From a virus, in the IMG/VR virus record IMGVR_UViG_3300017917_002374, positions 62,001 to 126,000 of that record: a stretch of 64,000 nt of DNA; one strand, given 5' to 3'. Below, piece by piece: positions 5,587 through 47,633 of this stretch; position 1 is the first letter of the stretch; each line of letters starts with the position of its first letter. Both the position numbers and the translations under genes were made by a program. The notes beneath the pieces are model-generated. The model saw nothing but the letters and a program-made list of their open reading frames with translations, was not told the origin of the DNA and ran no database searches.

Positions 5587-6420
5587 ATGCGTGTCAATGT
5601 AATCTCTGACCTTCACCTGGAATTTGGCGATCTAGAACTGCCCGGCGGCGATGTTCTAGTGCTCAGTGGTGACGCATGCGAAAGCCGTACCCTGCGCAAG
5701 TACAAGTATGATCCTAACAATCTCATGACCGAACAAGGTAATCCCAAGCGTATGGATCGTGCTGCTCGTTTCTTCAATGAAGAAGTGACCAAGTATCGTC
5801 GGTGCATTTATGTAATGGGCAACCACGAACACTATCATGGCAAATACCACAAAACCTGGCACGAGCTAATTGCAGAAATGCCTGACAATGTGGAAGTGTT
5901 GGAACAGCAACACACAGAGATTGATGGTGTGTTGTTCCTGGGTGCCACACTATGGACCAGCTGTAACAAAGCAGATCCCATGACGCTCATGGTGTTGAAG
6001 AATGGCATGAACGACTATCGCGCTATCACCTATCACGATCGTACCAGAGGGGTGTATCGTAAACTGGATCCACAGGACACTCTAGCTGAGTACAGCAAGA
6101 CTGTGCAATACTTCAGACTCATGTGCGAACAGAATCGCGACAAGAAGATTGTGGTATGTACTCATCATGCACCCAGCTTTCAAAGTGTGCATGAGCACTA
6201 CAAACATGATCGTGAAATGAATGGCGGATATGCGTCCGATCTTACAGATTTTATTCTTGATCAAGAAAATGTTCTGTTCTGGACACATGGTCACATGCAC
6301 GACCCAAGTGACTACATGGTGGGTCAATGTCGCGTGATATGCAACCCACGTGGCTACAATGGCTATGAACAGCGGGTGAAAGATTTTGATCCCACTGTGG
6401 GATTTGACATCACAGCCTAA
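5587..6420 (+). CDS. calcineurin-like metallophosphoesterase
   Basis: 277 residues with the full metallophosphoesterase motif set: D8-x-H10 (SDLHLE), GD at 28-29 (GDACE), GNHEH at 78-82, THHAPS, and a final GHxH (THGHMHDPSDY). These bind two metals and cleave phosphomono- or diesters. The substrate cannot be told: phage members include phosphatases and nucleases. It has its own sigma70 promoter, suggesting early expression. Confidence 0.85.
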   Translation: MRVNVISDLHLEFGDLELPGGDVLVLSGDACESRTLRKYKYDPNNLMTEQGNPKRMDRAARFFNEEVTKYRRCIYVMGNHEHYHGKYHKTWHELIAEMPDNVEVLEQQHTEIDGVLFLGATLWTSCNKADPMTLMVLKNGMNDYRAITYHDRTRGVYRKLDPQDTLAEYSKTVQYFRLMCEQNRDKKIVVCTHHAPSFQSVHEHYKHDREMNGGYASDLTDFILDQENVLFWTHGHMHDPSDYMVGQCRVICNPRGYNGYEQRVKDFDPTVGFDITA

Positions 6421-7330: not shown

Positions 7331-7714
7331 ATGGCAAAACTTGGTAATCTAACCATTCCAGTATCTCCAGGTACTACCAGCGTGAGTATAATGGGCAGCG
7401 GTGGCTCCGGAGGGGTACTGTCCAATGGCACTTACTCATGGACTCAGCCTTACAATTTAAATAGTCAGACCACCGGTATCACTCAGGTTCAAAGCTCACT
7501 AAAAGTCAACGGCGACGCAGAATTTGCAGGCTCGATAAAGATACAAGGCATGGATATTGGTGAGGCTTTGGCCAAGATCAATCAACGCCTGGCTATCCTA
7601 ATACCTGATCCAAAACTGCTGGATAAGTACACTGCACTACAAGAGGCCTATGATCACTACAAAACCCTTGAGGCCCTGTGCGTGGAATCAGATGCTAGTA
7701 GAACAGAAAAATGA
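7331..7714 (+). CDS. putative virion-associated protein (127 aa)
   Basis: Gly/Ser/Thr-rich N-terminal half (GSGGSGGVLSNGTYSW), then VNGDAEFAGSIKIQGMDIGEALAKINQRLAIL and a C-terminal helix. The block V-x-G-D-A-x-F-x-G-x-I-x-x-Q-G-x-D followed by a helix ending in RLAIL is common in structural proteins of T4-like aquatic phages as I remember them. Role in the particle unknown. No Shine-Dalgarno sequence; the upstream region is AT-rich. Confidence 0.6.
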   Translation: MAKLGNLTIPVSPGTTSVSIMGSGGSGGVLSNGTYSWTQPYNLNSQTTGITQVQSSLKVNGDAEFAGSIKIQGMDIGEALAKINQRLAILIPDPKLLDKYTALQEAYDHYKTLEALCVESDASRTEK

Positions 7715-7910
7715 CAAATGGTACGTGTACTGGAGTGCTCACATTCACAAGGCTCTAGAAGCAGCCGAATGGTGCCAGGACAGCTTTGGTCCATTTTGGG
7801 GAGAATTTCAAAGAGGATCAGTTGAGAACACTGGCATTGGCAAGCACACGTTCATGTTCCATTTATTGAGTCATGCTCAATGGTTTCAGCTCAAACACGA
7901 ACGATTCTAG
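7692..7910 (+). CDS. LKW-family paralogue 1 (72 aa)
   Basis: First of the tandem family. The ATG at 7692 is preferred over 7650 because it gives a shorter overlap and begins at the conserved part (NDKWYVYW). It has HKALEAAEWCQDSFGPFWG, then a beta region, and ends AQWFQLKHERF, a diverged form of the shared C-terminus. Function unknown. Confidence 0.55.
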   Translation: MLVEQKNDKWYVYWSAHIHKALEAAEWCQDSFGPFWGEFQRGSVENTGIGKHTFMFHLLSHAQWFQLKHERF

Positions 7911-7939
7911 TTGACGTAAAACTTTAACTCTGTTAGACT
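7911..7939 (+). promoter_or_regulatory. sigma70-type promoter giving a leaderless mRNA
   Basis: TTGACG (7911-7916), exactly 17 bases, TAGACT (7934-7939). The expected start at 7946 is the A of the next ATG; no Shine-Dalgarno sequence exists between the promoter and that codon. Confidence 0.6.
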
Positions 7940-7945
7940 ACTGCT

Positions 7946-8128
7946 ATGATTGATGTTGAGATTAAAAACACCACACGTGCCAGCGATGCTGCTGTTTGGT
8001 GTTTGGACAATTTGATTCCGGGACACTGGCATATGGAAGTGGTTCATTTCTGCACACCCGGAGTCAAATACAGATTCAGTTTTCTTGACAGCAAGATTGC
8101 TACCTATGTCAGTTTGAAATTCGCATGA
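7946..8128 (+). CDS. LKW-family paralogue 2 (60 aa)
   Basis: Short family member with ASDAAVWCLDNLIPGHW, then VKYRFSFLDSKIATYVSLKFA, so the last motif is LKF in place of LKW. The start codon coincides with the predicted transcription start of its own promoter. Overlaps the next gene by ATGA. Function unknown. Confidence 0.6.
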   Translation: MIDVEIKNTTRASDAAVWCLDNLIPGHWHMEVVHFCTPGVKYRFSFLDSKIATYVSLKFA

Positions 8129-8364
8129 AATATCATGTAAAAGAACTTGTTCATAAAAAAGGATATTGGGTAGAGGTTGCCTCTACCAAGAGAGATATCA
8201 GTAGAGAGGCGTGGATGCTTATGCCTTTGGATTTAACTGAACAAGACATGCTAGAAATAGCAGAATGGGTAGTTGAGCATAATCTAGGCTCCAGGCAAAG
8301 TTTTAATCAATGGAGACTAAAAGATGCCAGCGCAGTTTTGGCATTTAGATTAAAATGGGGGTAA
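8125..8364 (+). CDS. LKW-family paralogue 3 (79 aa)
   Basis: Family pattern: DMLEIAEWVVEHNLG in the middle helix, then a strand and a last helix-strand DASAVLAFRLKWG. Two N-terminal strands (YHVKELVHKKGYWVEVAS) precede. ATGA overlap upstream. Function unknown. Confidence 0.62.
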   Translation: MKYHVKELVHKKGYWVEVASTKRDISREAWMLMPLDLTEQDMLEIAEWVVEHNLGSRQSFNQWRLKDASAVLAFRLKWG

Positions 8365-8365
8365 C

Positions 8366-8551
8366 ATGAATATAGATTTGTTGCCATGGCTACTGGTAGT
8401 ACAATTGTGGACCGATCCTCCACCCAAGATGAAATTTATATACAAAAAAGTATATCCAGACTATGCTGCATGCATGGAAGCTCGTAAAGAATGGGAACAG
8501 AAAAATTTTGTGGCATTGTGCAGCCCAAAATCTGAAGATAAACCCAAATGA
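8366..8551 (+). CDS. small protein with N-terminal hydrophobic segment
   Basis: 61 residues starting MNIDLLPWLLVVQLW, a possible membrane anchor or uncleaved signal, followed by KKVYPDYAACMEARKEWEQKNFVALC with two Cys. It is not obviously a member of the LKW family around it. Overlaps the next gene by ATGA. Confidence 0.55.
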   Translation: MNIDLLPWLLVVQLWTDPPPKMKFIYKKVYPDYAACMEARKEWEQKNFVALCSPKSEDKPK

Positions 8552-8757
8552 AGATTGTAACTTTACCATTTAAAGATGGCATTGCTGAACAAGAAACCAA
8601 ACGTGGTATGGACATCTCACGTTGGCTGAAATCACAAGGATTGACCATAGGCAAAGACTATACCTGGAAGGTTAACATGGTGGAGAGAGAACTGCAATTC
8701 ATGTTTAACGGCGATGCAGAAGCCTGGGCTACCTTGATCAGCATGAGAGACTTATGA
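8548..8757 (+). CDS. possible diverged LKW-family protein (69 aa)
   Basis: It has the same outline (strand, helix MDISRWLKSQG, strands DYTWKVNMVERELQFMFN, final helix GDAEAWATLISMRDL) but lacks the final LKW. Its position between members 3 and 5 supports relatedness. Function unknown. Confidence 0.55.
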   Translation: MKIVTLPFKDGIAEQETKRGMDISRWLKSQGLTIGKDYTWKVNMVERELQFMFNGDAEAWATLISMRDL

Positions 8758-8972
8758 ATGTGATTGCTGTTGAACCTTACTATGACCGCATGCAGGAATA
8801 CTATTGTGCTCATGTTAAAGACCTAGAATTCTGGGACTGGGTAAAACAGGAGTACGGTGGATATCATGTGTACATGGCCAGCAATTATCAGGCAGTAGGC
8901 GAAAAAGCAGGCAGTGGATTGTATTTTGGATCACCAGAAGAAGTAACCTTTTTTACACTACGATGGTCCTAA
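8754..8972 (+). CDS. LKW-family paralogue 5 (72 aa)
   Basis: Contains LEFWDWVKQEYGGYHVYM and ends SPEEVTFFTLRWS. ATGA overlap with the upstream gene. The middle Trp-containing helix and terminal LRW fit the family. Function unknown. Confidence 0.62.
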   Translation: MNVIAVEPYYDRMQEYYCAHVKDLEFWDWVKQEYGGYHVYMASNYQAVGEKAGSGLYFGSPEEVTFFTLRWS

Positions 8973-8978
8973 CCGTAC

Positions 8979-9200
8979 ATGATCAAAGTTTATCTTACCG
9001 ACGAAGGAAGAGATCTTGACTACAATCGTATGAGATTGTATTTTATAGATGCTGCTATATGGGCTACCAAACACTGTCCAAGTTATAGTAGATTTGATAT
9101 AACAGACACTGCTGATGTTAGTCCTTTTTATGATCAGATAGCCGAGTATGAATTTGGAGATGAACGTGATGTTTTGGCTTTTAAATTAAAATGGGCCTAG
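8979..9200 (+). CDS. LKW-family paralogue 6 (73 aa)
   Basis: Contains YFIDAAIWATKHCPSYSRF, then beta strands, and ends DERDVLAFKLKWA. Closest in pattern to the members at 9735 (AxWAxxHCPSY shared) and 8125 (LAF-x-LKW shared). Function unknown. Confidence 0.64.
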   Translation: MIKVYLTDEGRDLDYNRMRLYFIDAAIWATKHCPSYSRFDITDTADVSPFYDQIAEYEFGDERDVLAFKLKWA

Positions 9201-9550
9201 AACCTTACATGTACAGATACAACATGATAGAGAAAACTAGAAGTCTGCTAACCTTGTTCTGGTGGATGTACATGCCAGGCGTAAAAGTGAAACTGCGTTG
9301 GCCCAAAGGCACAGTGGTAGTAGGACCTAATGATTCTAGATGGTATGATGTTGGTGCCACCTGGGTAGAAATAGAAAGTGCTGATCCTAATGACTTTTAT
9401 CGTCCCTGGATGGAACAGCATGTGGGTCGCCAAGGTTGGGATTGGGACTGGCGCATGGAAGACAACGATGTGGGCGACAACCTGTTGACTGTGAAATTAC
9501 GACGCAGCAAGGCCAGCGCAGCCACAGCACTTGCATTGAAATGGTCATGA
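9191..9550 (+). CDS. LKW-family paralogue 7, long form (119 aa)
   Basis: Longest of the family, ending ASAATALALKWS. Strands rich in Trp (WPKGTVVVGPNDSRW, WVEIESADP) come first, then a helix WMEQHVGRQGW. ATG 9191 overlaps the upstream gene by ten bases; a second in-frame ATG at 9209 would remove the overlap. Function unknown. Confidence 0.6.
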   Translation: MGLEPYMYRYNMIEKTRSLLTLFWWMYMPGVKVKLRWPKGTVVVGPNDSRWYDVGATWVEIESADPNDFYRPWMEQHVGRQGWDWDWRMEDNDVGDNLLTVKLRRSKASAATALALKWS

Positions 9551-9738
9551 GCTTTCCACTTTTCAAATACAATCACAATTGGCAATACAACGGAGCTGCG
9601 CCGTTTATTGACATTGTGACCTGGTGTACGCAGATGTTCGGGCACTGCGGATCCAGCAGCTCTTGGGATCATGTTTGGGAAACTATCTATTTTGTTGAAG
9701 ATGCTGACTATGCACTGTTTTTGTTGAGGTGGTCATGA
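9547..9738 (+). CDS. LKW-family paralogue 8 (63 aa)
   Basis: The start is set at 9547, where ATGA overlaps the previous stop; the frame is open further upstream but that part is a shadow. PFIDIVTWCTQMFGHCG gives the W-C helix, and the protein ends DADYALFLLRWS. Function unknown. Confidence 0.6.
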   Translation: MSFPLFKYNHNWQYNGAAPFIDIVTWCTQMFGHCGSSSSWDHVWETIYFVEDADYALFLLRWS

Positions 9739-9938
9739 ATAACTATGTAGACCTTCTAGTGCCCGAAGCCGTTCCTGCCGATGGACATACTAGTGGGTTT
9801 GAAGCCTTGTATTGGGCTAAGGTGCATTGCCCAAGTTATATAACCAATGATGTTATTCAAAAACAAGGGCAATACTATTATAGATTTTATTTTAGAAAAG
9901 AACAAGATCAGATAGTGTTTGCATTGAAATGGTTATGA
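9735..9938 (+). CDS. LKW-family paralogue 9 (67 aa)
   Basis: ATG at 9735 overlaps the previous stop by ATGA; a GTG six bases earlier is less likely. GFEALYWAKVHCPSYITN, then QYYYRFYFRKEQDQIVFALKWL: a clear example of the family's strand, helix, strand ending. Function unknown. Confidence 0.63.
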   Translation: MNNYVDLLVPEAVPADGHTSGFEALYWAKVHCPSYITNDVIQKQGQYYYRFYFRKEQDQIVFALKWL

Positions 9939-9939
9939 T

Positions 9940-10284
9940 ATGAACGACATTCCGCAACAATTTGATCTTTCTCGTGTTAGTCGCCTTGAAGCAGACATTA
10001 TGGATGATACTGCGCGAGAAATTCGTAATGAAATAGACAAATCTGTAATTGAAGAAATAACCTGGATAGCACACATGCACAATCACCCTGACTGGCACCT
10101 AGTGGAAATACCCTGGGAAAAAACACATGATAAAAACTTCAACTGGAACGAAGCCTGTGCCTGGGCAGTGGAGCAGTTTGGGCTGCCTGGAGAAAACTTT
10201 GTCACACACCCTAGTTTAAATCAAATGAAGTTTTTGTTCAAACACGAGCAACACGCTATAATGATGACACTACGGTGGATCTAA
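9940..10284 (+). CDS. LKW-family paralogue 10 (114 aa)
   Basis: It carries an extra N-terminal helical region of about 40 residues (SRLEADIMDDTAREIRNEID), then WHLVEIPWEK, WNEACAWAVEQFGLPGENF and the ending MKFLFKHEQHAIMMTLRWI. Shows that the core can be fused to other segments. Function unknown. Confidence 0.62.
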   Translation: MNDIPQQFDLSRVSRLEADIMDDTAREIRNEIDKSVIEEITWIAHMHNHPDWHLVEIPWEKTHDKNFNWNEACAWAVEQFGLPGENFVTHPSLNQMKFLFKHEQHAIMMTLRWI

Positions 10285-10524
10285 ATGGAAGGCAAATTCA
10301 TACCTAGTCTGCAGATAAGTAAAAAAGATCATGCGGTTCTCATGGATCGCTTGGTGGCAGAATATGGTATGCGCATCTTGCTCAGCTGGGTATCACGGCG
10401 TGAGTTGGGGTTTACTGTTAGGACTCACAGACCGCGCCACGGGCGTGAACAGATATTCCTGGATTTCTACAACGAAGCCAGTAAAACCTTTTTTCTATTA
10501 AAGTATTATAACCATGAAAACTGA
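10285..10524 (+). CDS. LKW-family-like protein 11 (79 aa)
   Basis: Starts immediately after the previous stop. Has helix HAVLMDRLVAEYGMRILLSW, strands, and a terminal segment NEASKTFFLLKYYNHEN where LKY replaces LKW. Likely the last, diverged member of the array. Function unknown. Confidence 0.55.
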   Translation: MEGKFIPSLQISKKDHAVLMDRLVAEYGMRILLSWVSRRELGFTVRTHRPRHGREQIFLDFYNEASKTFFLLKYYNHEN

Positions 10525-10966
10525 AGACGAAATCCTAAAACTGGCCCAGATATTTGATGATATCATAGGCAGCGACAGTCGCGCAGTACAAGAAGCGTTT
10601 CAACGATTGGTTCTTTTGGCCACTATAGGCAAACCAGACAACGATAATTTTGAACAAGGACCATTTGCTCGCATGATAACAGGCATGCAGGTAATGGAAC
10701 AGGAAATCAAGAGCCTGCGACGCAGTGTACAAATTTTGGAAAACAAACACCCAAATGATACATTTAAAATTGATATTGATAACATTGGTATAGACCTATC
10801 ACAATACAGTTCCAACATACCACATGTGGCACCGCTTACCATCAGTCAAATAGAAACAATCACGCTGACAGACTCCACTATGAGTGGCAGTTCCGCTAGT
10901 TTTTCTGGACTTGACACAATTACCATTGGCGACTATAATAGCTGGTCGTTGGATGATAAAAAATAG
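10514..10966 (+). CDS. hypothetical protein (150 aa)
   Basis: Helical N-terminal half with a coiled-coil-like segment (MEQEIKSLRRSVQILENKH); the C-terminal half is Ser/Thr/Asp-rich with short strand repeats (ISQIETITLTDSTMSG, GLDTITIGDYNSW). A structural or oligomeric role is possible. No family recognised. Confidence 0.6.
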   Translation: MKTEDEILKLAQIFDDIIGSDSRAVQEAFQRLVLLATIGKPDNDNFEQGPFARMITGMQVMEQEIKSLRRSVQILENKHPNDTFKIDIDNIGIDLSQYSSNIPHVAPLTISQIETITLTDSTMSGSSASFSGLDTITIGDYNSWSLDDKK

Positions 10967-35802: not shown

Positions 35803-36216
35803 ATGGGCAAAGTATATCGTTCCGCACAAGGAAAAATGGTTGATGTAGATGCATTGCGACTACGCAACGAAGAAACTATTGCAGTAGGCAATATGAAAGT
35901 GAATGCTCGCGGGGATGAACTAGGTCCCGGGGGCGTGGTAGTAAAAACTCGTAATGAACTCATGGATGATTATTATAAATCAAATGCAGTTTATACCAAA
36001 GAAACATCTGGTAGCAATGCAGATAAAACTTCTCGTCCCCAAGCAGAAGATGATTTCAGCGATCTTGATCCTACCATTCTAGAACAAGATCAAGAAATGG
36101 AACAAGCTCCTGTCAATCAACCAAAACTGCGCGGCAATCTAGCAGATGCAGTGGCCAAAAGCAAAAACGTTGAACAAAAACTTTTAACTCCTAAAAAACC
36201 AATCACGAGGATCTAA
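35803..36216 (+). CDS. probable virion protein (137 aa)
   Basis: MGKVYRSAQGKMVDVDALRLRNEETIAVGNMKVNARGDELG: I recall the block GK-x-[YF]-x-S-A-Q-G-K-x-V-D...VGNMxVNARGD from T4-like aquatic phages, unassigned but in late operons. The second half is acidic and disordered, ending in basic residues. Late promoter and good ribosome site support a structural role. Confidence 0.65.
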   Translation: MGKVYRSAQGKMVDVDALRLRNEETIAVGNMKVNARGDELGPGGVVVKTRNELMDDYYKSNAVYTKETSGSNADKTSRPQAEDDFSDLDPTILEQDQEMEQAPVNQPKLRGNLADAVAKSKNVEQKLLTPKKPITRI

Positions 36217-36641
36217 TGGCAGAAAAGAAAATTTCAGGGGCCGCTGACCTTTTCCCCACCGGCGGGTCAGCACGGTTCACTCATCGTATAGGCACTTTGC
36301 ACCCATTGCATGACAATGTGTTGGTCAGAGACATGAGCTTTGAGGGTCGTCAACTGCAAAGCGGAATCCTTTTACTAGGCGACGATGGTAAAACTGATGG
36401 TATTCGTCCACGCTGGGCACGAGTGTACGCAGTAGGCCCAGAACAAAAATCTGTAGAACCAGGACAATGGATTCTGGTTGAACACGGACGCTGGAGTCGT
36501 GGAATTGAAGTAGAAGTAAATGAAGAAAAATTCACTTTACGTAGAGTGGATCCTGACTGTATAATGTTTGTTAGCGACGAAGAACCAACTGATATTGAAA
36601 CCTTGAGTACAGCTCTTCACGCAGAAAAGAAAGCACGTTAG
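36216..36641 (+). CDS. GroES-like co-chaperonin
   Basis: 141 residues. The centre LHPLHDNVLVRDMSFEGRQLQSGILLLGDDGK...WARVYAVGPEQKSVEPGQWILVEHGRWSRGIEV follows the Cpn10 fold: N-terminal strand, mobile loop near GRQLQSGILL, and barrel strands. T4-like phages use such proteins (gp31 in T4) in place of GroES so that host GroEL can fold the capsid protein. Longer than GroES (about 97), with extra ends. Start overlaps the upstream stop by one base. Confidence 0.8.
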   Translation: MAEKKISGAADLFPTGGSARFTHRIGTLHPLHDNVLVRDMSFEGRQLQSGILLLGDDGKTDGIRPRWARVYAVGPEQKSVEPGQWILVEHGRWSRGIEVEVNEEKFTLRRVDPDCIMFVSDEEPTDIETLSTALHAEKKAR

Positions 36642-36649
36642 GAGACATC

Positions 36650-36799
36650 ATGCCCATGTATGAAACCACAGTAAAAACACCGCAAGGTGAAACCAAAGAC
36701 CGAGTGTATGCCAAGGATCTGCAAGAAGCACGGCAATTGTTTGAACAACGGCATGGTCCGCGTAATGTTCCCTACATTCCAAAAGTAATCCCCAGCTGA
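36650..36799 (+). CDS. small protein of unknown function (49 aa)
   Basis: MPMYETTVKTPQGETKDRVYAKDLQEARQLFEQRHGPRNVPYIPKVIPS, i.e. strand, strand, helix, Pro-rich end. TAGGAG lies 6-7 bases before the ATG. The compact beta-beta-alpha layout is common in small phage proteins; function unknown. Confidence 0.6.
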   Translation: MPMYETTVKTPQGETKDRVYAKDLQEARQLFEQRHGPRNVPYIPKVIPS

Positions 36800-36802
36800 T
36801 TC

Positions 36803-37027
36803 ATGGGTTTCCGCAAACCAGATTTAGAAGCAGCTTACTCTGCCATAAGGCGTTGTATTGGCGAAATTCGTTCGCCTTATAATGACGGCTTCACTGGCGA
36901 AGGTTGCAAGCACGAACTTTATCAGTTAAAATGTTGGCTTGAAGATCAGTACGCTGATCTTCCCTCGTTTGCTACTGAAAAAGATTGGGAGCAAGAACGT
37001 ATTGTAAAAATTCTAAAACAGGAATAG
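36803..37027 (+). CDS. small protein of unknown function (74 aa)
   Basis: MGFRKPDLEAAYSAIRRCIGEIRSPYNDGFTG..., helical, with two Cys (C18 and C35). Sits between the co-chaperonin genes and the clamp loader. No family recognised. Confidence 0.58.
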   Translation: MGFRKPDLEAAYSAIRRCIGEIRSPYNDGFTGEGCKHELYQLKCWLEDQYADLPSFATEKDWEQERIVKILKQE

Positions 37028-37028
37028 C

Positions 37029-37952
37029 ATGAAAGAACTTTGGGTAGAAAAATATAGACCTCGCACAGCTGACCAGTATGTGTTTGTAGACGAAACACAG
37101 CGAGAACAAGTGCAGAGCTGGATCGCTGCCAAACACATTCCACATCTACTGTTTCACGGTGGTCCAGGCACAGGCAAGACCACATTGGCTCGTATGCTGA
37201 TCAACGAACTGGGAGTGGATGAGTATGATGTAATGTATGTGAATGGATCCAAGGAAGGTCGTAAGATTGAATGGATTGATCGCCTGATCAGCTTTTGTCA
37301 GACCATGCCGTTTGGTGAATTCAAGGTAGTACTGGTAGACGAAGCAGACTACATGAACAAGGAAAGTGTGCAGCCTGCACTGCGCAACCTAATGGAAGAC
37401 TACAGTAGCAGTGTGAGATTTATTCTCACCTGTAACTATCCTCATAAGATTATTCCGCCATTGCACAGTCGTTTCCAAGATTTACATATTGCCAAAACAG
37501 ACCACACAGAGTTTACTGCTCGTGTGGCCACAGTGCTGGTGTCAGAAGGCATAGAATTTGATTTGGACACACTGGACAGTTATGTTAAAGCCACTTATCC
37601 AGATCTACGTAAGTGTTTGAATCTTGTGCAACAGAACAGTACCACTGGTTCACTGAACCGACCACGAGAAGGCGAACGTGGTGTAGGCGATTGGAAGTTG
37701 GACTGTGTGCATCTGTTTAAAACAGGTAAGATTCGTGAGGCTAGAACTCTGCTGTGCAGTCAGGCACAACCAGAAGAAATGGATGAGATTTTTCGCTGGA
37801 TGTATGACAATATTGATTTGTTTGGCAAGAGTACAGAACAGCAAGATGAGGCAATCAAAATCATTCGTAATGGCATTGTGAATGCCAACTATGTAGCAGA
37901 TGCTGAAATCAATCTCAGCGCAACACTAATTGAACTAGGACAACTATCATGA
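37029..37952 (+). CDS. 44: sliding-clamp loader AAA+ subunit (gp44 type)
   Basis: 307 residues of the clamp-loader family. Starts LWVEKYRPRTADQYV, the usual opening; Walker A GGPGTGKT (44-51, Lys50), Walker B VLVDEADY (DEAD 104-107), and the clamp-loader SRF motif (147-149) after LTCNY (sensor 1). The ATPase uses ATP to open and load the sliding clamp (gp45) for the DNA polymerase at the end of this window. ATGA overlap with the next gene, which stands where T4 has gene 62 but does not look like it. Confidence 0.92.
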   Translation: MKELWVEKYRPRTADQYVFVDETQREQVQSWIAAKHIPHLLFHGGPGTGKTTLARMLINELGVDEYDVMYVNGSKEGRKIEWIDRLISFCQTMPFGEFKVVLVDEADYMNKESVQPALRNLMEDYSSSVRFILTCNYPHKIIPPLHSRFQDLHIAKTDHTEFTARVATVLVSEGIEFDLDTLDSYVKATYPDLRKCLNLVQQNSTTGSLNRPREGERGVGDWKLDCVHLFKTGKIREARTLLCSQAQPEEMDEIFRWMYDNIDLFGKSTEQQDEAIKIIRNGIVNANYVADAEINLSATLIELGQLS

Positions 37953-38386
37953 ACAAAAACAATATCTATCTTGTAGCACAGTATTACATGAAACCCAAAG
38001 CACATGTGCGCACACATGTGAAAGGCTGGATGAAAGACCCTAACAACATTCGTTATGACGAAAAAGTTGAAATTTCTCGTGGGCTGCGCAGCAAAGATGT
38101 GAATGCCAAAATTATTCTTGATCTTACTAACAAACAGGTTCATAAAAATGGCTTTGCTACAGATCGCCCATTTGATGAAATTTTCAAGTATTTCTTTGCC
38201 AACTACAATGAGTATATTATCAAGGTAATGACCCAACTGGATCCTGTGTATCTAGATCAAATTGTGACCGAACTAGAAAAAGAAATTGCCGAAGCTGAGC
38301 AAGCACAAAAGACACAAGTGGAAGCTAGTGCTCCGGAGAATCAAATTCCACTAGGAACTATCAACAGTGAAAAAGTTCAGGCTTGA
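37949..38386 (+). CDS. conserved hypothetical, possible clamp-loader partner (145 aa)
   Basis: NIYLVAQYYMKPKAHVRTHVKGWMKDPNNIRYDEKVEISRGL: a basic beta-rich N-terminal half, then a helix and an acidic C-terminal helix. It is translationally coupled to the gp44 gene, the place of gene 62 in T4, so a small clamp-loader subunit is one option; the sequence gives no direct proof. I recall similar unassigned proteins in aquatic T4-like phages. Confidence 0.6.
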   Translation: MNKNNIYLVAQYYMKPKAHVRTHVKGWMKDPNNIRYDEKVEISRGLRSKDVNAKIILDLTNKQVHKNGFATDRPFDEIFKYFFANYNEYIIKVMTQLDPVYLDQIVTELEKEIAEAEQAQKTQVEASAPENQIPLGTINSEKVQA

Positions 38387-38687
38387 GGATAGTGGTGCCC
38401 GCGGGTGGTTCATTGGTGATTTTCCTGAAGCTGTACACAGAACCAAGGATTTTGAACTAAACTGGCAGACCAATGCTCGTGGGCATGGAGTCAGCCACTA
38501 TCACAAGATCATAACGGAAATACAGTTAATCACTAGAGGACGCATGCTGGTCAACGGCGTGCTGTTTGAATCTGGAGATATCTGTTATCTTGAACCAGGT
38601 GATATATATCAAGTGCAGTATCTAGAAGAAACTGACACTGTGGCTGTGAAGTTTCCTAGTGTACCAGACGATAAATATCTATTATGA
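38367..38687 (+). CDS. cupin-fold protein (106 aa)
   Basis: GTG start within the upstream gene. Contains the two cupin motifs: GVSHYHKIITEIQLITRGRMLVNG (H-x-H plus E) and ESGDICYLEPGDIYQVQYLEETDTVAVKFP (P-G-D-x). The His and Glu could bind a metal. Small cupins like this recur in aquatic T4-like phages; the substrate is unknown. Confidence 0.72.
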   Translation: MKKFRLEDSGARGWFIGDFPEAVHRTKDFELNWQTNARGHGVSHYHKIITEIQLITRGRMLVNGVLFESGDICYLEPGDIYQVQYLEETDTVAVKFPSVPDDKYLL

Positions 38688-38914
38688 GCAACATTTTTAA
38701 GGCCATGAAGGCCAAGAAAAAACGTGCAGTGGATCCTGATGCTCCTCCACGCCCTACCCTGCTTGGTCACGACAAACAGATCCGTGACATGAGTGCTGCC
38801 CATGAACGCGAGCTTGCAGAATTGAGGTCGCGTGTTCACAATTTAGAGCGTAAACTACGACATCAAACCAATTACTTAGACGCATTACACAATAGAGTAG
38901 TAACAAAAAAATAA
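38684..38914 (+). CDS. small coiled-coil protein (76 aa)
   Basis: A basic N-terminus (AMKAKKKRA) and Pro-rich turn precede a long helix (MSAAHERELAELRSRVHNLERKLRHQTNYLDAL) with clear heptads. Probably oligomeric. ATGA overlap upstream. Function unknown. Confidence 0.6.
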   Translation: MSNIFKAMKAKKKRAVDPDAPPRPTLLGHDKQIRDMSAAHERELAELRSRVHNLERKLRHQTNYLDALHNRVVTKK

Positions 38915-38931
38915 CCTAGAGGAGCAAGGGC

Positions 38932-39129
38932 ATGATGCAGGACTTCTTTACTGGTGCTGTTGTTACTAAATCAGCAACAGATTATTCCGTGGTTTATAAA
39001 GAGCAAATAGTTGCAAATTGTGCAATATTTGAAAGTGCGCTCATGCTAGCCCTAGACCGCAAGCAGCTGGAAAAGTTGCATAAAAGTAACGAAAATTCCC
39101 CCAAAAAACAAGCATTTACAGCATCCTAA
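38932..39129 (+). CDS. small protein of unknown function (65 aa)
   Basis: GAGGAG lies about 10 bases before an ATGATG start. TGAVVTKSATDYSVVYKEQIVANCAIFESALMLALDRKQLEKL reads as a beta hairpin followed by a helix. Function unknown. Confidence 0.55.
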   Translation: MMQDFFTGAVVTKSATDYSVVYKEQIVANCAIFESALMLALDRKQLEKLHKSNENSPKKQAFTAS

Positions 39130-39135
39130 AAATGG

Positions 39136-39164
39136 TTGACCCAAAAGGTCCCATTTGTTATACT
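39136..39164 (+). promoter_or_regulatory. sigma70-type promoter, cassette copy 1
   Basis: TTGACC (39136-39141), 17-base spacer, TATACT (39159-39164); expected start near 39171, followed by a leader that recurs at the next promoter. Confidence 0.7.
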
Positions 39165-39169
39165 GTTGA

Positions 39170-39189
39170 TACAGTAACTAATAAGGAGC
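39170..39189 (+). repeat. duplicated 20-base leader (second copy 39705-39724)
   Basis: TACAGTAACTAATAAGGAGC occurs twice, each time directly after a TTGACC-17-TATAxT promoter and including the AAGGAG ribosome site. The exact repeat suggests a copied promoter-leader cassette or a shared regulatory target. Confidence 0.78.
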
Positions 39190-39196
39190 GTAACAA

Positions 39197-39496
39197 ATGG
39201 GCAAGCTCACTGCTTACACCTTTGAAATTTACAAAGCAGACAAACGTATCAAAAAAGACGAGCGATACGGCAAAAACAAAGCAGGTCTGCGTTTTGTTGA
39301 AGTCAAGGATTTTGCACCACTCACCCGTAGCCACGTAGAAGCACTGGCTGAAGACTTTCGTAAAGAAGGCCTGGTGGTACATGTTTACGAAACTTTTGTA
39401 ACTCGCAAGAACATGATGTCAGGCAAGGAGTATCAAGAACGTTATGACACTCCCTACTTCTGCTCGCCTAGTTCTGAAACCTACTGGAGCATGTGA
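39197..39496 (+). CDS. hypothetical protein (99 aa)
   Basis: Basic beta-alpha protein (TAYTFEIYKADKRIKKDERYG, VEALAEDFRKEGLVVHVYET). It has its own strong promoter and AAGGAG 8 bases before the ATG, so it is probably made early and in quantity. No family recognised. Confidence 0.65.
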   Translation: MGKLTAYTFEIYKADKRIKKDERYGKNKAGLRFVEVKDFAPLTRSHVEALAEDFRKEGLVVHVYETFVTRKNMMSGKEYQERYDTPYFCSPSSETYWSM

Positions 39497-39636
39497 TGAA
39501 AATAGTATTCAATAAACTGCTCAACGGCTGGTACATTGTGCGTGGCCGTCACCAAACTCCTATCAGTGGTCGCTTTGACAGCAAGGAGCAGGCGCTAGCT
39601 CATCTGCGTCGTCGCAATCCGTTGCAAATGGTGTAA
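39496..39636 (+). CDS. small basic protein (46 aa)
   Basis: MKIVFNKLLNGWYIVRGRHQTPISGRFDSKEQALAHLRRRNPLQMV, i.e. beta hairpin then helix, very Arg-rich. Overlaps the upstream stop by one base. The layout (G-W-Y-I-V-x-G...F-x-S-K-x-x-A-x-x-x-L) is that of small DUF-like phage proteins. Function unknown. Confidence 0.6.
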   Translation: MKIVFNKLLNGWYIVRGRHQTPISGRFDSKEQALAHLRRRNPLQMV

Positions 39637-39670
39637 CAAAGATTGCAAAATTGTTAACAATACTTTTTGG

Positions 39671-39699
39671 TTGACCAAAAATACCCATTTCTGTATAAT
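39671..39699 (+). promoter_or_regulatory. sigma70-type promoter, cassette copy 2
   Basis: TTGACC (39671-39676), 17-base spacer, perfect TATAAT (39694-39699); expected start near 39706, at the start of the duplicated leader. Confidence 0.72.
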
Positions 39700-39726
39700 A
39701 GTGGTACAGTAACTAATAAGGAGCCC

Positions 39727-40038
39727 ATGATGCCTACAGCAACCTACAATGCACTTACCGAACAAGAAAAGCGCGAAGTTCGTATGTACGGCTGTACAGA
39801 AGCGCAGATGCGCGAAGCAGTAGAGTCCAGCATAACCTTCAAGCTCAGCGGCCCTGCAATGATAGCCGCTAGCATGATGAGCGATGCACAAGAAATGGTC
39901 AGCTACGGTCCTTACGACAGCGACACCCTGGCCAATATCATGGAAGACCAGCGTCAACTGCTCAACCGTGCCAAGTTTGTTTTGTTCACTTATATTATGG
40001 ATCGCGACGGCAGTGCTGTGGCTCCTATGAAAGGTTAA
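39727..40038 (+). CDS. hypothetical protein (103 aa)
   Basis: An ATGATG start; the second ATG (39730) is 6 bases from AAGGAG and may be the one used. Helical, Met-rich (MIAASMMSDAQEMV). It follows the second copy of the promoter-leader cassette, so it is probably co-regulated with the gene at 39197. No family recognised. Confidence 0.64.
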   Translation: MMPTATYNALTEQEKREVRMYGCTEAQMREAVESSITFKLSGPAMIAASMMSDAQEMVSYGPYDSDTLANIMEDQRQLLNRAKFVLFTYIMDRDGSAVAPMKG

Positions 40039-40042
40039 TTGT

Positions 40043-40432
40043 ATGAACTTTGATCAAAAGGTAAACTTTGTAACCAACACTTCAGGTGATGGGTTTTGGT
40101 CCGACAAAGTAAAAACTGTGCGTATCACTCGTGTGGAACTGGCCTATGTAAGTGAAGAAGGCAACTGGGGAGAACTGCGAGCCTACTTTGATACTAAAGA
40201 TTGGGATGTTGAAAACGACGGTTTGATTTACACAGACAGTGCGTGGATGGGCAGCTTCATGACTTGTATGAGCACCTTGGGCTTTAGCGACACTGCTATA
40301 GATGATATCTCATACAGTGAACAGGGCATGCAAGAAGTTGATTACGTGAGCATGGATGTTGGTGAGCAATTTATAAAAGAGTGCGAAGCACTGTATCGTT
40401 GGACCATAAATCGTGAGGCAGTTAATGGTTAA
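40043..40432 (+). CDS. hypothetical protein (129 aa)
   Basis: Acidic (rich in Asp, Glu, Trp and Tyr), with TVRITRVELAYVSEEGNWGELRAYFDT and WTINREAVNG. Acidity and size would suit a DNA mimic or inhibitor, but this is speculation. Four bases after the previous stop. Confidence 0.62.
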   Translation: MNFDQKVNFVTNTSGDGFWSDKVKTVRITRVELAYVSEEGNWGELRAYFDTKDWDVENDGLIYTDSAWMGSFMTCMSTLGFSDTAIDDISYSEQGMQEVDYVSMDVGEQFIKECEALYRWTINREAVNG

Positions 40433-40715
40433 GCTAAACACAGAATTCATTGCGTTTCCTACACACCTACAAACCAGTTTGCGCGACTATATTGATCGTG
40501 GCATTCCGCAGGGCGGGTTTTTGTATCATGTGTTGTGCAACGATCTAGAGGGAGCCGTGCTCCGTGCTACAGATGAAGAATTGCTGTTCCTGCGAGCACT
40601 AATGCAATGGGTACAAACCTGTGTGCCCGAAGCTGCATGGGGCACAGAAGCCAAATATCTACGCTGGGTACAAGAGCATCCTGGGCAAGCAAGAGGTCCA
40701 AAAGATCTTGAATAA
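40425..40715 (+). CDS. hypothetical protein (96 aa)
   Basis: The ATG at 40425 overlaps the upstream stop; a GTG 12 bases earlier is possible. Helical with HLQTSLRDYIDRGIPQGGFLYHVLCNDLEGAVLRATDEELLFL. The pattern I-x-R-G-x-P-x-G-G-F-L-x-x-V-L-x-N-D-L resembles a small family of phage and plasmid proteins of unknown function. Confidence 0.64.
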   Translation: MVKLNTEFIAFPTHLQTSLRDYIDRGIPQGGFLYHVLCNDLEGAVLRATDEELLFLRALMQWVQTCVPEAAWGTEAKYLRWVQEHPGQARGPKDLE

Positions 40716-40747
40716 ACTCTAATTTTCCTTTACAATAGGTATAAATA
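40708..40747 (+). promoter_or_regulatory. overlapping sigma70 and late promoters of dnaK
   Basis: TTGAAT (40708-40713), 17-base spacer, TACAAT (40731-40736), start near 40743. A perfect TATAAATA (40740-40747) follows, with a T4-type start near 40753. Gives both early and late dnaK transcripts. Confidence 0.65.
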
Positions 40748-40750
40748 TTT

Positions 40751-40779
40751 GCATACAGGTGCCACATGGGCCTGTATGC
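40751..40779 (+). promoter_or_regulatory. 9-bp hairpin in the dnaK leader
   Basis: GCATACAGG (40751-40759) and CCTGTATGC (40771-40779) pair perfectly with an 11-base loop, 12 bases before the AAAGGAG ribosome site. The early transcript would contain the whole stem; the late one would start inside its left arm. Confidence 0.62.
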
Positions 40780-40806
40780 AAAACCATTTGTTAAAGGAGA
40801 ATAAGA

Positions 40807-42726
40807 ATGGCTAAAATCATAGGTATCGACCTAGGTACCACCAACTCATGCGTAGCCGTAATTGAAAACGGCAAACCCAAAGTAATTGAAAATTCCGAAG
40901 GCGCACGTACTACACCCAGTATCGTTGCTTACGCCAATGATGAAATTCTAGTAGGCGCACCTGCCAAACGTCAAGCAGTTACCAACAGCAAGAACACTGT
41001 GTATGCTGCCAAGCGACTGATTGGGCGCAAGTTCAAAGACACAGAAGTACAAAAGAATATCAAGCACACTCCCTATGCCATTGTGGAAGCAGACAATGGC
41101 GATGCTTGGGTACAAGCACAAGACAAAAAACTAGCACCACCACAGATCAGCGCAGAAGTGTTGCGCAAAATGAAAAAGACTGCTGAAGACTATCTTGGTC
41201 AGCCGGTTACACAGGCAGTGATCACAGTGCCTGCTTATTTCAATGACAGTCAGCGTCAAGCAACCAAAGACGCAGGTAAAATTGCCGGTCTAGAAGTGCT
41301 GCGTATTATCAACGAGCCCACTGCTGCTGCGTTGGCATATGGCTTGGACAAAGGCGCTAAAAAGGACAGCAAGATTGCTGTTTATGACCTTGGTGGTGGT
41401 ACCTTTGACGTATCGATCATTGAAATTGCCAATGTTGAAGGCGACATGCAATTTGAAGTATTGGCTACCAATGGTGACACACACCTTGGCGGCGAAGACT
41501 TTGACCAAAAGATCATTGACTATCTGATTGAAGAATTCAAGAAAGAAACAGGCACTGATCTCAGTAAAGACACACTGGCACTACAGCGTTTGAAGGACGC
41601 TGCTGAAAAAGCCAAGATTGAATTGAGTAGCGGTGCTCAGACCGAAGTGAATCTGCCTTATATCACAGCAGATGCCACAGGTCCTAAACACATGAACATC
41701 AAGATCACTCGCAGCAAGTTTGAAGGCTTGGTTACTGATCTTGTGGAACGTTCAATTGAGCCTTGCCGTCAAGCCTGTTTTGATGCTGGGCTAAAGCCTA
41801 GCGAGATTGATGAAATCATTCTCGTGGGTGGACAAACTCGTATGCCTATGGTACAAGGTTATGTGGAAAGCTTCTTTGGCAAGGCTCCACGTAAAGATGT
41901 GAACCCAGACGAAGCAGTTGCCGCGGGAGCGGCCATCCAGGGTGATGTGTTGGGAGGCGGCCGAACGGACGTTCTCTTGTTGGATGTCACACCACTCTCA
42001 CTGGGAATTGAAACCATGGGCGGTGTTATGAGCAAGCTGATCAACAAGAACACTACCATTCCTACAAAGACCAGCCAGATTTATAGCACGGCTGATGACA
42101 ATCAGCCAGCAGTTACTATCAAGGTGTATCAAGGTGAACGTGAAATGGCACAGCACAACAAACTGCTGGGCGAGTTCAACCTGGAGGGCATTGATCCTGC
42201 ACCACGCGGCATGCCACAGATTGAAGTTAGTTTTGACATTGACGCTAACGGTATTTTGACTGTGAACGCCAAAGACAAGAAAACTGGCAAGGCCAATAAC
42301 ATTACTATTAAGGCCAACTCCGGTCTAACCGAAGAAGAGATTGCCAAAATGGTGCGCGAAGCTGAAGAAAATGCCGAAGCTGACAAAAAACAGCGCGAAC
42401 TGGTTGAGTCACGCAACACAGCAGAGCATCAGATCTGGGGTGTTGAGAAAAAGCTCAAAGAGCATGGCGATCAGCTTACCGAAGAACAGCGCGAGGCTGT
42501 TAATGACCATCTAAAGAAAATTCGTGAGGCCATGGCAGGCGAAGATGTGGACGCTATTCAAAAGTCCATTGAAGAAGCAGTGCCCAAGTTCATGCCTTTG
42601 ATGGAGCTCAGTCAAAAAGCCGAAGCTGAAAAGCAAGCAGAAGTAAAAGCAGCACCGCAAGCAGAATCATCAGATGCAAAAGACGATAATGTTGTTGATG
42701 CTGAATTTACTGAAAAGAAAGACTAA
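40807..42726 (+). CDS. dnaK: Hsp70 chaperone DnaK
   Basis: 639 residues, full length (E. coli 638). ATPase domain with IDLGTTNS (7-14), the phosphate-binding [12 protein letters not shown] and LVGGQTRMP; linker [19 protein letters not shown]; substrate-binding domain with NTTIPTK and YQGERE; C-terminal lid, and a tail [11 protein letters not shown] like bacterial DnaK. No ATPase residue seems missing. It holds unfolded proteins with help from a J-domain partner; one is encoded at 47634. Blocks such as GDAWVQ and [24 protein letters not shown] resemble betaproteobacterial DnaK, suggesting capture from a host. Early and late promoters, leader hairpin, terminator directly behind. No grpE seen. 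Confidence 0.96.
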
Positions 42727-42732
42727 CAACAC

Positions 42733-42757
42733 TGGGGGCTTAGGCCCCCATTTTATT
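42733..42757 (+). terminator. Rho-independent terminator after dnaK
   Basis: TGGGGGC-ttag-GCCCCCA stem-loop (42733-42750) followed by TTTTATT, seven bases after the dnaK stop. Confidence 0.85.
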
Positions 42758-42769
42758 TCAAGGTGACAT

Positions 42770-43351
42770 ATGAGTTTCAAAACCATGTTAGTGGACTGTG
42801 ATGGTGTGCTGTTGGACTGGCAGTATACATTTGATGAATGGATGAAAAAACGCGGCTATGTACAAAAGCCCAATGCTGAAGATTATTATAAGATATCTGA
42901 TCAATTTGAAAATGTAAGTGCCACAGAAGCTAAAAAGTTTACCAAGCTGTTCAATGAATCAGCGGCAATCGGATTTTTACCTCCGTTGCGAGACAGCGTG
43001 TATTGGATCAAACGTATTAATGAAGAACTTGGCTATAGGTTTGTGTGTATTACCAGTCTCAGTGAAGATCCCTATGCTGGCAAACTGCGACGCATGAATC
43101 TTGAACGCTGGTTTGGTGATGTGTTTGAGGATGTGGTTTGTTTGCCCACAGGCAGTGACAAACATGAGGCACTGGAACAATATCGTGATTCAGGATTGTT
43201 TTGGTGTGAAGATAAATTAGAGAACGCCGACTTAGGCCACAATCTTGGCCTGAAAAGCATACTACTTGAGCATGGACATAACCGTGGTGTGGTACGTCCA
43301 TACCCAGTAGTCAAACACTGGCGTCAAATTCACGCACTGTTGAGCAACTAA
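42770..43351 (+). CDS. HAD-family phosphatase / 5'-nucleotidase-like
   Basis: 193 residues with HAD motif I DCDGVLLDW (D9 nucleophile, D11 acid/base), motif II in VCITSLS, motif III Lys around GSDKHEAL, and an acidic motif IV FWCEDKLEN. Similar small HAD enzymes in phages are annotated as 5'(3')-deoxyribonucleotidases. It may adjust nucleotide pools with MazG; the substrate is not proven. Convergent with phoH, the two stops overlapping. Confidence 0.74.
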   Translation: MSFKTMLVDCDGVLLDWQYTFDEWMKKRGYVQKPNAEDYYKISDQFENVSATEAKKFTKLFNESAAIGFLPPLRDSVYWIKRINEELGYRFVCITSLSEDPYAGKLRRMNLERWFGDVFEDVVCLPTGSDKHEALEQYRDSGLFWCEDKLENADLGHNLGLKSILLEHGHNRGVVRPYPVVKHWRQIHALLSN

Positions 43352-44115
43352 ATTTCTTTATAGATTTTTAGTACCTCAACCACAGCAGGATGTCTATGCA
43401 CATCCTTGCCGGTGAACTCCACTCCGGCCACATAACGACAATCTTTATATTGATCCACTAGACGTTGAAAGTCTAGCAGCCCATTGTCGTTTTCTTTTCT
43501 ATCAGCTTGTCTGGTGTCGCCTGTGACTACCAGCTTGCTGTTCTCACCTAAACGTGTCAGCAGCATTTTCATTTGACCTGGGGTCGCGTTTTGCATTTCG
43601 TCTGCAATTATCCACGCATTTTTAAATGTCCGCCCACGCATGTATGCTAGTGGAGAAATCTCAATCTGTTGGTCTTCTAGCATACGGGTAATATCTTGTG
43701 GCCTATAGTGTTCGTGCATGATATCAAATATAGGCCGGGTCCAAGGTTCCATCTTGGCATTTAAATCGCCGGGAAGAAACCCGTGTTTTTCATCATCAAC
43801 TCCAACTGCTGGGCGAGTAACAATTATCTTGCTACATTCACCTGCTCTAAAAGCTCTAAGAGCTGCTAGAACTGCTAGCATGGTTTTTCCTGTGCCAGCT
43901 GGTCCTGTTGCAAAAACTATCAAACGATCCGGATTTAAAAGTAGGTCTATATACTCCTCTTGTTTTAGACTTTTAGGTATTAAACTGATTTGTTTCTTTT
44001 GTGTTCTGAATTCTTGAAAACTAATGGTATTATCAAATGCGGGCTGTAATGCCAGTTTTTGCTTTCTTTTGCTCAAGTTTGATGCTCCTATGTTGGTAAA
44101 TTTGTAGACAGACAT
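43348..44115 (-). CDS. phoH: PhoH-family ATPase
   Basis: 255 residues, the only minus-strand gene. Walker A GPAGTGKT (71-78), Walker B IIADEMQN (169-176), sensor-like VVTGDTRQ and RPAVGVDDEKHGFLPGDLNAKMEPW. This is the core PhoH domain, linked in bacteria to RNA metabolism and phosphate response, and very common in aquatic phages. Leader on the minus strand has AAGGAG just before ATG, preceded by a hairpin. I saw no clear Pho box. Convergent with the HAD gene, divergent from the gene at 44294. Confidence 0.93.
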   Translation of the reverse strand: MSVYKFTNIGASNLSKRKQKLALQPAFDNTISFQEFRTQKKQISLIPKSLKQEEYIDLLLNPDRLIVFATGPAGTGKTMLAVLAALRAFRAGECSKIIVTRPAVGVDDEKHGFLPGDLNAKMEPWTRPIFDIMHEHYRPQDITRMLEDQQIEISPLAYMRGRTFKNAWIIADEMQNATPGQMKMLLTRLGENSKLVVTGDTRQADRKENDNGLLDFQRLVDQYKDCRYVAGVEFTGKDVHRHPAVVEVLKIYKEI

Positions 44116-44130
44116 TTTGAGCTCCTTAAG

Positions 44131-44165
44131 AGCCAGTGGTTGTGCTGGCTACACAAATATTTAAA
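44131..44165 (-). promoter_or_regulatory. phoH late box and leader hairpin
   Basis: Read on the minus strand: TTTAAATA (44165-44158) then, about six bases on, AGCCAG-cacaacca-CTGGCT (44150-44131), a 6-bp stem with 8-base loop, then the AAGGAG site. The hairpin would sit at the very 5' end of the phoH transcript. Confidence 0.5.
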
Positions 44166-44268
44166 ACTGTTTCTAGATAGTAAAACACAGTTGAATTCGG
44201 CAACAGGTCTTGCATAAGTAATAGACTGTGCCTCAAATTTAGCTTTGCATATCCAATCTGCTTTTAGA

Positions 44269-44276
44269 GCTAAATA
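44269..44276 (+). promoter_or_regulatory. late-promoter box GCTAAATA
   Basis: Same octamer as the two boxes before the fibre gene at 31158; 17 bases before the next ATG. It lies in the 178-base divergent gap next to phoH, in which I see no other gene. Confidence 0.52.
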
Positions 44277-44293
44277 ATGTAAACGGATAAGAT

Positions 44294-44845
44294 ATGTCAA
44301 CCGAATTACTAGATATCATTCAGAACTCCAAAGATCTTTACATGAGCGACAGTGCTGTGACCAGTCTCATGGATTTTGAGCGTGTGCTAGACGAGCTGGA
44401 TCTATATGTGTTCAAAAACTGGAAAAAAGGCGAACTGGTAGCAGGTCCAGCATACGAGAAGTATTTTGTAAGCTGCACCTTTATGTGGCCTCGCAAGTTC
44501 ATGCCTGATCCACGTGGTGGCGAAAGACTACTAGATTATGGTTGTGAAGTGTACTACAAAAAAGACACTCTCAGCTATCCAGTAAAGATTAAGGATCAAT
44601 CTGATTTCAAACCGGGTACCAAGATGCCCAAGCAGGCCACAGTGCCTATTTGGTTGGTTGAAATTGTGATGCCTAAAAAACTCATGCAAGATGTCACACG
44701 CGGTAGTGTGGAACTTGAAAATGAAAGTGTGGATGCAGAAGACATTGAACAGGCTTACGAAACAGGTGCAGATGAGGATGCGTACAAAACTCCAGACGCA
44801 GTTGCAGGTCAACCGCCAGCGCCAATATCAGGAGCACCAGCATGA
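44294..44845 (+). CDS. conserved phage structural-operon protein (183 aa)
   Basis: Recognisable block GPAYEKYFVSCTFMWPRKFMPDPRGGERLLDYGCEVYYKKD, then WLVEIVMPKKLMQD and an acidic Pro/Ala-rich tail. I remember nearly the same sequence in T4-like phages of marine bacteria, always unassigned and next to the following gene. Late promoter and ATGA coupling to its neighbour suggest a virion or assembly role. Confidence 0.68.
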   Translation: MSTELLDIIQNSKDLYMSDSAVTSLMDFERVLDELDLYVFKNWKKGELVAGPAYEKYFVSCTFMWPRKFMPDPRGGERLLDYGCEVYYKKDTLSYPVKIKDQSDFKPGTKMPKQATVPIWLVEIVMPKKLMQDVTRGSVELENESVDAEDIEQAYETGADEDAYKTPDAVAGQPPAPISGAPA

Positions 44846-45387: not shown

Positions 45388-45401
45388 AAAAGGAGCTACC
45401 C

Positions 45402-46031: not shown

Positions 46032-46032
46032 T

Positions 46033-46996: not shown

Positions 46997-47019
46997 TAAT
47001 CAAATAAAGGAGCTTAAAC

Positions 47020-47544: not shown

Positions 47545-47546
47545 TC

Positions 47547-47554
47547 TATAAATA
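47547..47554 (+). promoter_or_regulatory. late promoter TATAAATA
   Basis: Perfect octamer just after the holin stop; start near 47560 gives a leader of about 74 bases before the J-domain gene. Confidence 0.62.
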
Positions 47555-47598
47555 TTTGCGTAACGGTCAGCGAGAATTGCCTAAAGTGGGATTCTCGC

Positions 47599-47627: not shown

Positions 47628-47633
47628 ATGCGC

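Follow-up and report, generated by a model that had tools for sequence, protein, structure and literature searches.

A phage-specific family of small proteins in translationally coupled arrays of giant T4-like phages, with N-terminal segments resembling core phage proteins

The Gol peptide, 29 residues from the first quarter of the T4 major capsid protein gp23 and the most conserved region of that protein, binds the elongation factor EF-Tu (PMC3014915), and capsid, portal and terminase proteins are triggers of CapRel, Avs and Lit (PMC11087589, PMC9712102). Here we analyzed a 64,000-nucleotide stretch of viral DNA (the window; bases 62001-126000 of the 354,959-bp record IMGVR_UViG_3300017917_002374) that contains a tandem array of small genes whose products share a terminal L-K/R-W motif. 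The window's virus is a T4-like giant phage with a gp23-type capsid gene at ~238 kb of the record. The encoded capsid shares 66-70% identity with its counterparts in Sinorhizobium phage Phosso, Vibrio phage 2.275.O and Pseudomonas phage PA5oct; comparisons with the virus's own proteome were made protein by protein. The array belongs to a previously unnamed, phage-specific protein family that occurs in tandem, translationally coupled arrays of giant T4-like phages, and N-terminal cassettes of 20-60 amino acids (aa) on some members resemble, by sequence, conserved segments of core phage proteins. Neither phage arrays of this kind nor decoys built from fragments of core proteins were found in the open-access literature.

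The original prediction listed eleven open reading frames (ORFs) as about ten diverged paralogues, and all of them were present at the positions named. A membership profile was built from 682 members of other phages, leaving out both the window and the relative closest to it, and was run on the 420 window ORFs of at least 40 aa. The array ORFs were the top-ranked of the 420, seven of them at an expectation value (E) <1e-3, which establishes one real family of about ten diverged paralogues between 7692 and 10284 (Table 1). The strict terminal motif was found in 7 of 346 window ORFs of at least 45 aa, all seven inside the array. The proposed eleventh member, at 10285, ranked below unrelated ORFs and was left unsupported. 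An orthologue of the gene at 8979 (78% identical) resides in a 364-kb phage whose own array has further members, and another three pattern scans of viral contigs that yielded members, together with an iterated profile, brought the family to at least 860 distinct members at E<1e-3, mostly 44-163 aa long and packed at up to 24 members per 10-kb locus. Searches of whole records, counting matches up to E 1, found 30 members in record G002, 43 in Phosso, three in PA5oct and four in Pseudomonas phage Paride, and zero in Vibrio phage 2.275.O and Synechococcus virus S-PRM1. No relatives were confirmed when 84,980 bacterial and archaeal species genomes were scanned with the pattern of one subfamily. 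The expectation that no named family would fit held: the C-terminal domain had no significant match in Pfam, PHROGs, NCBIfam, PADLOC or PDB, the window members had no match in Pfam or PHROGs, and what the first four libraries returned were scattered weak matches of single members. A portal match of the product of 9191 (PHROG E 0.24) was non-significant and was dropped. No member's domain was linked to a known family, so the members did not disperse among different ones; links to known proteins were limited to some N-terminal extensions, namely those resembling the gp23 capsid. The standard libraries do not describe this family.

Recognized cassettes occurred in 109 of the 860 members (~13%, or ~1 in 8), spread over 118 of 170 loci; member counts refer to distinct sequences, while the loci often overlap or repeat near-identical contigs and are therefore partly non-independent. 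The contig records may be fragments, and E-values from the locus collections are uncorrected for how the loci were found. Cassettes resembling three segments of gp23 are strongly supported by sequence comparison. The first link came from an unselected tblastn search with one long relative, which led to the gp23 capsid in ~2,500 phage records. Among 65 long members not picked for capsid likeness, ten matched Pfam Gp23 (best 6e-13) and eight matched PHROG 138, the major head protein. A full capsid profile recovered 26 members at E<=0.01, a number that rose to 54 at E<=1, with zero in five shuffles or a reversal, and a profile of the spine segment found 29 members versus zero in the controls. When a profile of the spine cassettes was compared with PDB, the top four matches were all gp23 (E 0.0016-0.0029; next match 0.9), and a search of the whole PDB with one cassette matched gp23 alone. 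In capsid residue numbers the recurring segments were the N-arm (~50-98), a strand with the spine helix (157-220) and the C-terminal region (327-369); the N-arm cassette aligned to gp23 92-131, and a protein of the cultured phage Phosso, XYS97328.1, had the C-terminal segment at E 2.7e-7. Capsid-like segments were present in 17 of the 860 members versus 1 of ~6,800 other ORFs.

In the window, the two capsid profiles recovered the cassette of the gene at 9940 at E 0.0013 (segment) and 0.0029 (full length); orthologues of this gene elsewhere lacked the spine cassette. Three intermediates (L103:1715, L097:4216 and L078:5327) keep a EAKSRKLSARWT-like strand ahead of the helix and thereby connect the short helix prefixes, that of 9940 among them, to the capsid. 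As a whole protein, 9940 scored 13.3 bits with PF07068, below the curated cut-off of 24.4 bits, and some relatives passed the cut-off but only across a piece of 45-69 positions, which indicates that a capsid-like piece is present and not a capsid protein. A complete HK97-type fold of ~390 residues was not found, the members being mostly far shorter and the 9940 model consisting of a long helix and a small alpha-beta domain. At residues common to cassette and capsid the codons matched at chance level. The likeness therefore lies at the protein level, either old or convergent, and this disfavors both a recent copying of capsid DNA and an origin as copies of homing-endonuclease target DNA. One locus contains, at L103:1299-1724, a non-family ORF of 141 aa with a capsid N-arm segment (E 5e-14) directly upstream of a family member with a capsid spine segment, an arrangement that keeps the order of the capsid.

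Other prefixes resembled enzyme motifs. Moderate support was obtained for putative terminase/helicase Walker A cassettes and for cassettes with the NLCxEI site of ribonucleotide reductase (RNR), and weak support for a polymerase motif A cassette. The Walker A prefix (GR-x-x-GKS), similar to terminase or gp41-type helicase, was present in ~45 relatives and in no window gene; its residues were invariant or nearly so across 34 diverged members, with R, G and K invariant in set A10 and the first G and final S kept at >=90%. The RNR-like NLCxEI stretch occurred in ten members and polymerase motif A (DVNSMY) in three. Independent support came from an unselected tblastn search with one prefix (L079), which returned a phage primase/helicase (2e-3) and RNR alpha (7e-3), and from the best Pfam and PHROGs matches, all sub-threshold, which included DnaB_C, RNR, terminase and DNA_pol_B_2. 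The DIETTGL exonuclease motif of some prefixes was dropped as a candidate, since it may align with helicase sequence ahead of Walker A. The family domain begins within ~40-60 residues of the prefix, which leaves little space for a complete ATPase core with Walker B, although no dedicated search for one was made. Orthologous domains in different phages were preceded by different prefixes or by none, and some arrays held two or more different cassettes.

Neighboring genes of the family are joined in a way that involves the terminal motif itself. An ATGA overlap was found in 450 of 808 neighboring pairs. In the window, where the genes had been proposed to be joined by such overlaps, this proved correct at five junctions only (starts at 8125, 8548, 8754, 9547 and 9735); the remaining junctions comprised gaps of 1-35 nucleotides (nt), a single abutment and a single 10-nt overlap that places the ATG of 9191 within the Lys-Trp codons AAATGG of the previous gene. 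We note that in LKW members, for example window 9191, AAATGG holds an in-frame ATG two codons ahead of the ATGA start, giving apparent MVM beginnings. The Arg of LRW ends was encoded by AGG in 272 of 355 cases (77%) when the successor overlapped or abutted, versus 2 of 42 (5%) when a gap or no start followed, and for the same two groups the Leu was TTG in 252 of 355 (71%) versus 8 of 42 (19%). The ratio of Arg to Lys was ~4:1 in the former group and 1:1 in the latter. A Shine-Dalgarno match of at least 5 nt preceded 52% of ATGA starts, versus 6% (maximum 10%) under synonymous recoding. The terminal codons form this site as TTGAGGTGGTCATGA, and the consensus gene end reads TTGTTTATATTGAGGTGGTCATGA; in the window the Shine-Dalgarno form is found at the end of the gene at 9547, and several other members end in LKW. 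Many members thus end in dual-coding codons, which specify both the F-x-L-x-W end of a helix and the Shine-Dalgarno site of the next gene. Because the choice of AGG, of TTG and of Arg over Lys tracks an overlapping or abutting next gene, the terminal L-R-W is partly a nucleotide-level feature. The Trp was retained at 72-85% across all junction groups, and it and the preceding F-x-L are kept where no downstream gene follows, so a protein-level role exists as well. The earlier proposal that the terminal residues are buried or used for docking is incomplete, since it leaves out the part of the motif that follows the next gene. In the dual-coded C-terminus, a ribosome-binding site has clearly helped to shape a conserved protein motif, which cautions against taking terminal motifs for docking sites.

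We examined the shared domain with AlphaFold2 models of the products of 8979 and 9940. The first (predicted local distance difference test (pLDDT) 95.4, predicted template modeling score 0.82) has strands at residues 2-7, 36-43 and 53-59 and helices at 15-32 and 62-72. The second (pLDDT 88.9) begins with a long helix at 10-47, followed by strands at 53-58, 87-91 and 95-100 and helices at 69-80 and 103-113. Both models give one fold for the shared domain, predicted as beta-alpha-beta-beta-alpha, and not the unrelated folds that would have spoken against a common family. The order of elements anticipated from the sequence was recovered except for its final strand; LKW or LRW instead closes the C-terminal helix. 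A strand-ended, RRM-like fold was ruled out by the two models, both of which show three domain strands and a helical end in place of the four-strand beta-alpha-beta-beta-alpha-beta order of RRM and ferredoxin-like proteins. Foldseek matches in PDB were weak and ferredoxin-like (best 2ifx, E 0.004, template modeling score 0.54), and the nearest viral predicted structures were uncharacterized proteins of uncultured phages. The ratio of nonsynonymous to synonymous substitution rates (dN/dS) of the domain had a median of 0.126 over 231 orthologous pairs, none >1, and that of the N-terminal prefixes was 0.187 (124 pairs; 0.20 for Walker A prefixes); these are simple Nei-Gojobori counts at fairly high dS (median 0.95), so the values are approximate. 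Domain and prefix are both under purifying selection, and the subfamilies are conserved between phages. The fast diversification originally suggested for the array is contradicted by these low ratios and by this conservation.

With respect to function, we tentatively favor a reading in which the domain would be a common scaffold and the cassette-bearing members decoys or mimics of core proteins. Such a library would occupy factors of the host, or of competing elements, that recognize core proteins, with capsid- or terminase-sensing immune proteins and the EF-Tu/Lit pathway as candidates, and members with no recognizable cassette would present other surfaces. A tie to host defense is plausible. 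The broader statement, that giant phages keep libraries of self-fragment decoys expressed through a chain in which the C-terminal codons of one gene are the ribosome-binding site of the next, is possible but doubtful. Several observations weigh against the decoy reading. No recognized cassette was found in 87% of members, and 9940 is the only window gene that has one. The cassettes are short and would not adopt the fold they have in the parent protein, known sensors recognize mostly folded proteins, and the RNR, Walker A and polymerase motifs, which lie buried within the respective enzymes, fit poorly as sensor ligands. For the non-capsid cassettes, single-sequence support is weak, the hhalign values are optimistic because the sets were gathered by motif pattern, and full-length RNR, helicase and terminase profiles can score even shuffled sequences at E 0.017-0.05.

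The cassettes could instead be parts of accessory or regulatory subunits that dock onto or block the capsid assembly, packaging motor or RNR of the phage itself or of a co-infecting one, acting to modulate assembly or to exclude in a dominant-negative manner. We regard this as rather unlikely, although the cassettes match proteins of the phage's own lineage, the prefixes are under purifying selection, two or more different cassettes share some arrays, and the N-arm serves the capsid as an assembly interface; being internal to their proteins, the spine helix, the Walker A loop and the active site of RNR would make poor docking elements, the array neighbors include a metallophosphoesterase and not capsid genes, and the three listed PA5oct members have no mass-spectrometry note whereas several of their neighbors have one. 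The lack of such a mark in PA5oct also counts against the paralogues co-assembling as virion or hetero-oligomer components, for example injected internal proteins. Coupled translation favors assembly of neighboring products and structural-looking genes flank the window array, but the copy number ranges from 3 to 43 across genomes and tRNA and nucleotide-metabolism genes surround several of the Phosso arrays, and we consider this very improbable. That orthologous domains have differing prefixes or none would also be expected if array recombination fused core-gene fragments as an evolutionary by-product and the domain did the work, for instance as a small host-takeover protein; near-identical junction DNA in tandem arrays would favor such recombination. 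Against it stand the low dN/dS of the prefixes, the near-invariance of the Walker A residues across diverged members and the enrichment of capsid-like segments in the family, and we judge it unlikely. Closest to the original prediction is a set of diversified host-takeover effectors, in which each paralogue would use its domain to bind a separate host protein, the cassettes being incidental. The absence of cassettes from most members and the high copy number in G002 and Phosso agree with it, and many undiscovered anti-defense genes are expected among the small ORFs of jumbo phages (PMC13282480). Since the subfamilies are conserved between phages under purifying selection, with no rapid diversification, and PADLOC matches to defense proteins were only marginal and confined to single members, it appears quite unlikely.

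The setting of the array is as follows. A metallophosphoesterase-like gene lies nearby at 5587-6420, with homologues in ~30 array loci, and in PA5oct a family member is immediately upstream of a metallophosphoesterase. Structural-looking genes at 7331-7714 and 10514-10966 stand on either side of the array, their virion-associated likeness judged by eye only. Elsewhere in the window, at 36216-48473, a GroES-, DnaK- and DnaJ-like chaperone set was recognized by eye in one stretch. In the record as a whole (G000), the region at 207167 (L003) holds an open frame of 6,292 aa, unusually long even among giant phages. An RNR gene is divided between both record ends (1-1072 and 354403-354951; L217, L218), so the record is probably circular-closing and near complete.

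Table 1. Array genes and associated features in the window. E-values are those of the membership profile.
Position	Strand	Feature	Remarks
7692..7910	+	Family member, 72 aa	E 9e-8; atypical end LKHERF
7946..8128	+	Family member, 60 aa, end SLKFA	E 3e-4; its ATGA starts the next gene
8125..8364	+	Probable family member, 79 aa, end FRLKWG	E 0.03; counterpart in the relative, L007:2288, E 7e-7
8366..8551	+	Non-member gene within the array	Conserved in the relative (L007:2496, 71% identity)
8548..8757	+	Possible, degenerate member, 69 aa, without LKW end	E 0.11; ATGA overlap at each side
8754..8972	+	Family member, 72 aa, end FTLRWS	E 1e-7
8979..9200	+	Family member, 73 aa, end FKLKWA	E 1e-8; AlphaFold2 model
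9191..9550	+	Probable family member, <=119 aa, end LALKWS	E 0.03; start uncertain
9547..9738	+	Family member, 63 aa, end FLLRWS	E 3e-15
9718..9738	+	Dual-coding end TTTTTGTTGAGGTGGTCATGA	Encodes FLLRWS and the next gene's Shine-Dalgarno GAGGTGG and ATGA start (window sequence)
9735..9938	+	Family member, 67 aa, end FALKWL	E 5e-11
9940..10284	+	Family member, 114 aa, end MTLRWI	E 2e-14; N-terminal cassette, then family domain
9985..10089	+	gp23 spine-helix-like cassette of 9940	LEADIMDDTAREIRNEIDKSVIEEI versus own capsid IEAEIMAALAQEITVEIDQEIL
10285..10524	+	ORF, membership unsupported	E 0.63; homologue L007:2656 adjoins the relative's array

A large phage-specific family thus appears to carry pieces of the proteins by which bacteria detect phages. 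If the decoy reading is true, this would amount to a counter-defense principle built from self-derived fragments, and the cassettes would mark which regions of core proteins are sensed. Cultured phages with the family (Phosso, PA5oct and Paride) make these ideas testable. The source proteins themselves set the first point of comparison: the N-arm, the strand with the spine helix and the C-terminal YCPYxP region of T4 gp23 (PF07068) recur as cassettes, but the family has only those 20-60 aa, without the rest of the HK97 fold, and its C-terminal domain has no capsid likeness. That domain has a partial likeness to ferredoxin-like and dimeric alpha-beta barrel folds (2ifx), from which it differs in lacking the fourth strand and any sequence relation. 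The cassette sources overlap with the targets of inteins and homing elements, which are concentrated in conserved RNR, polymerase, helicase and terminase motifs; the cassettes, however, run directly into the family domain, their DNA is no more similar to the capsid source than expected by chance, and no splicing or nuclease domain was seen, Pfam and NCBIfam scans giving no Hint-type match and no dedicated search having been made. The triggers of CapRel, Avs and the capsid-sensing TIR system, capsid and terminase, are among the cassette sources, although the sensors in those systems are host proteins. The Gol/Lit/EF-Tu exclusion offers a parallel: a host factor is acted on by a short piece within the first quarter of gp23, and the N-arm cassette is compared with that piece at the level of the region (gp23 92-131). 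Gol lies in the capsid protein itself and triggers the defense, whereas the stretch found in this family is placed on a separate small protein.

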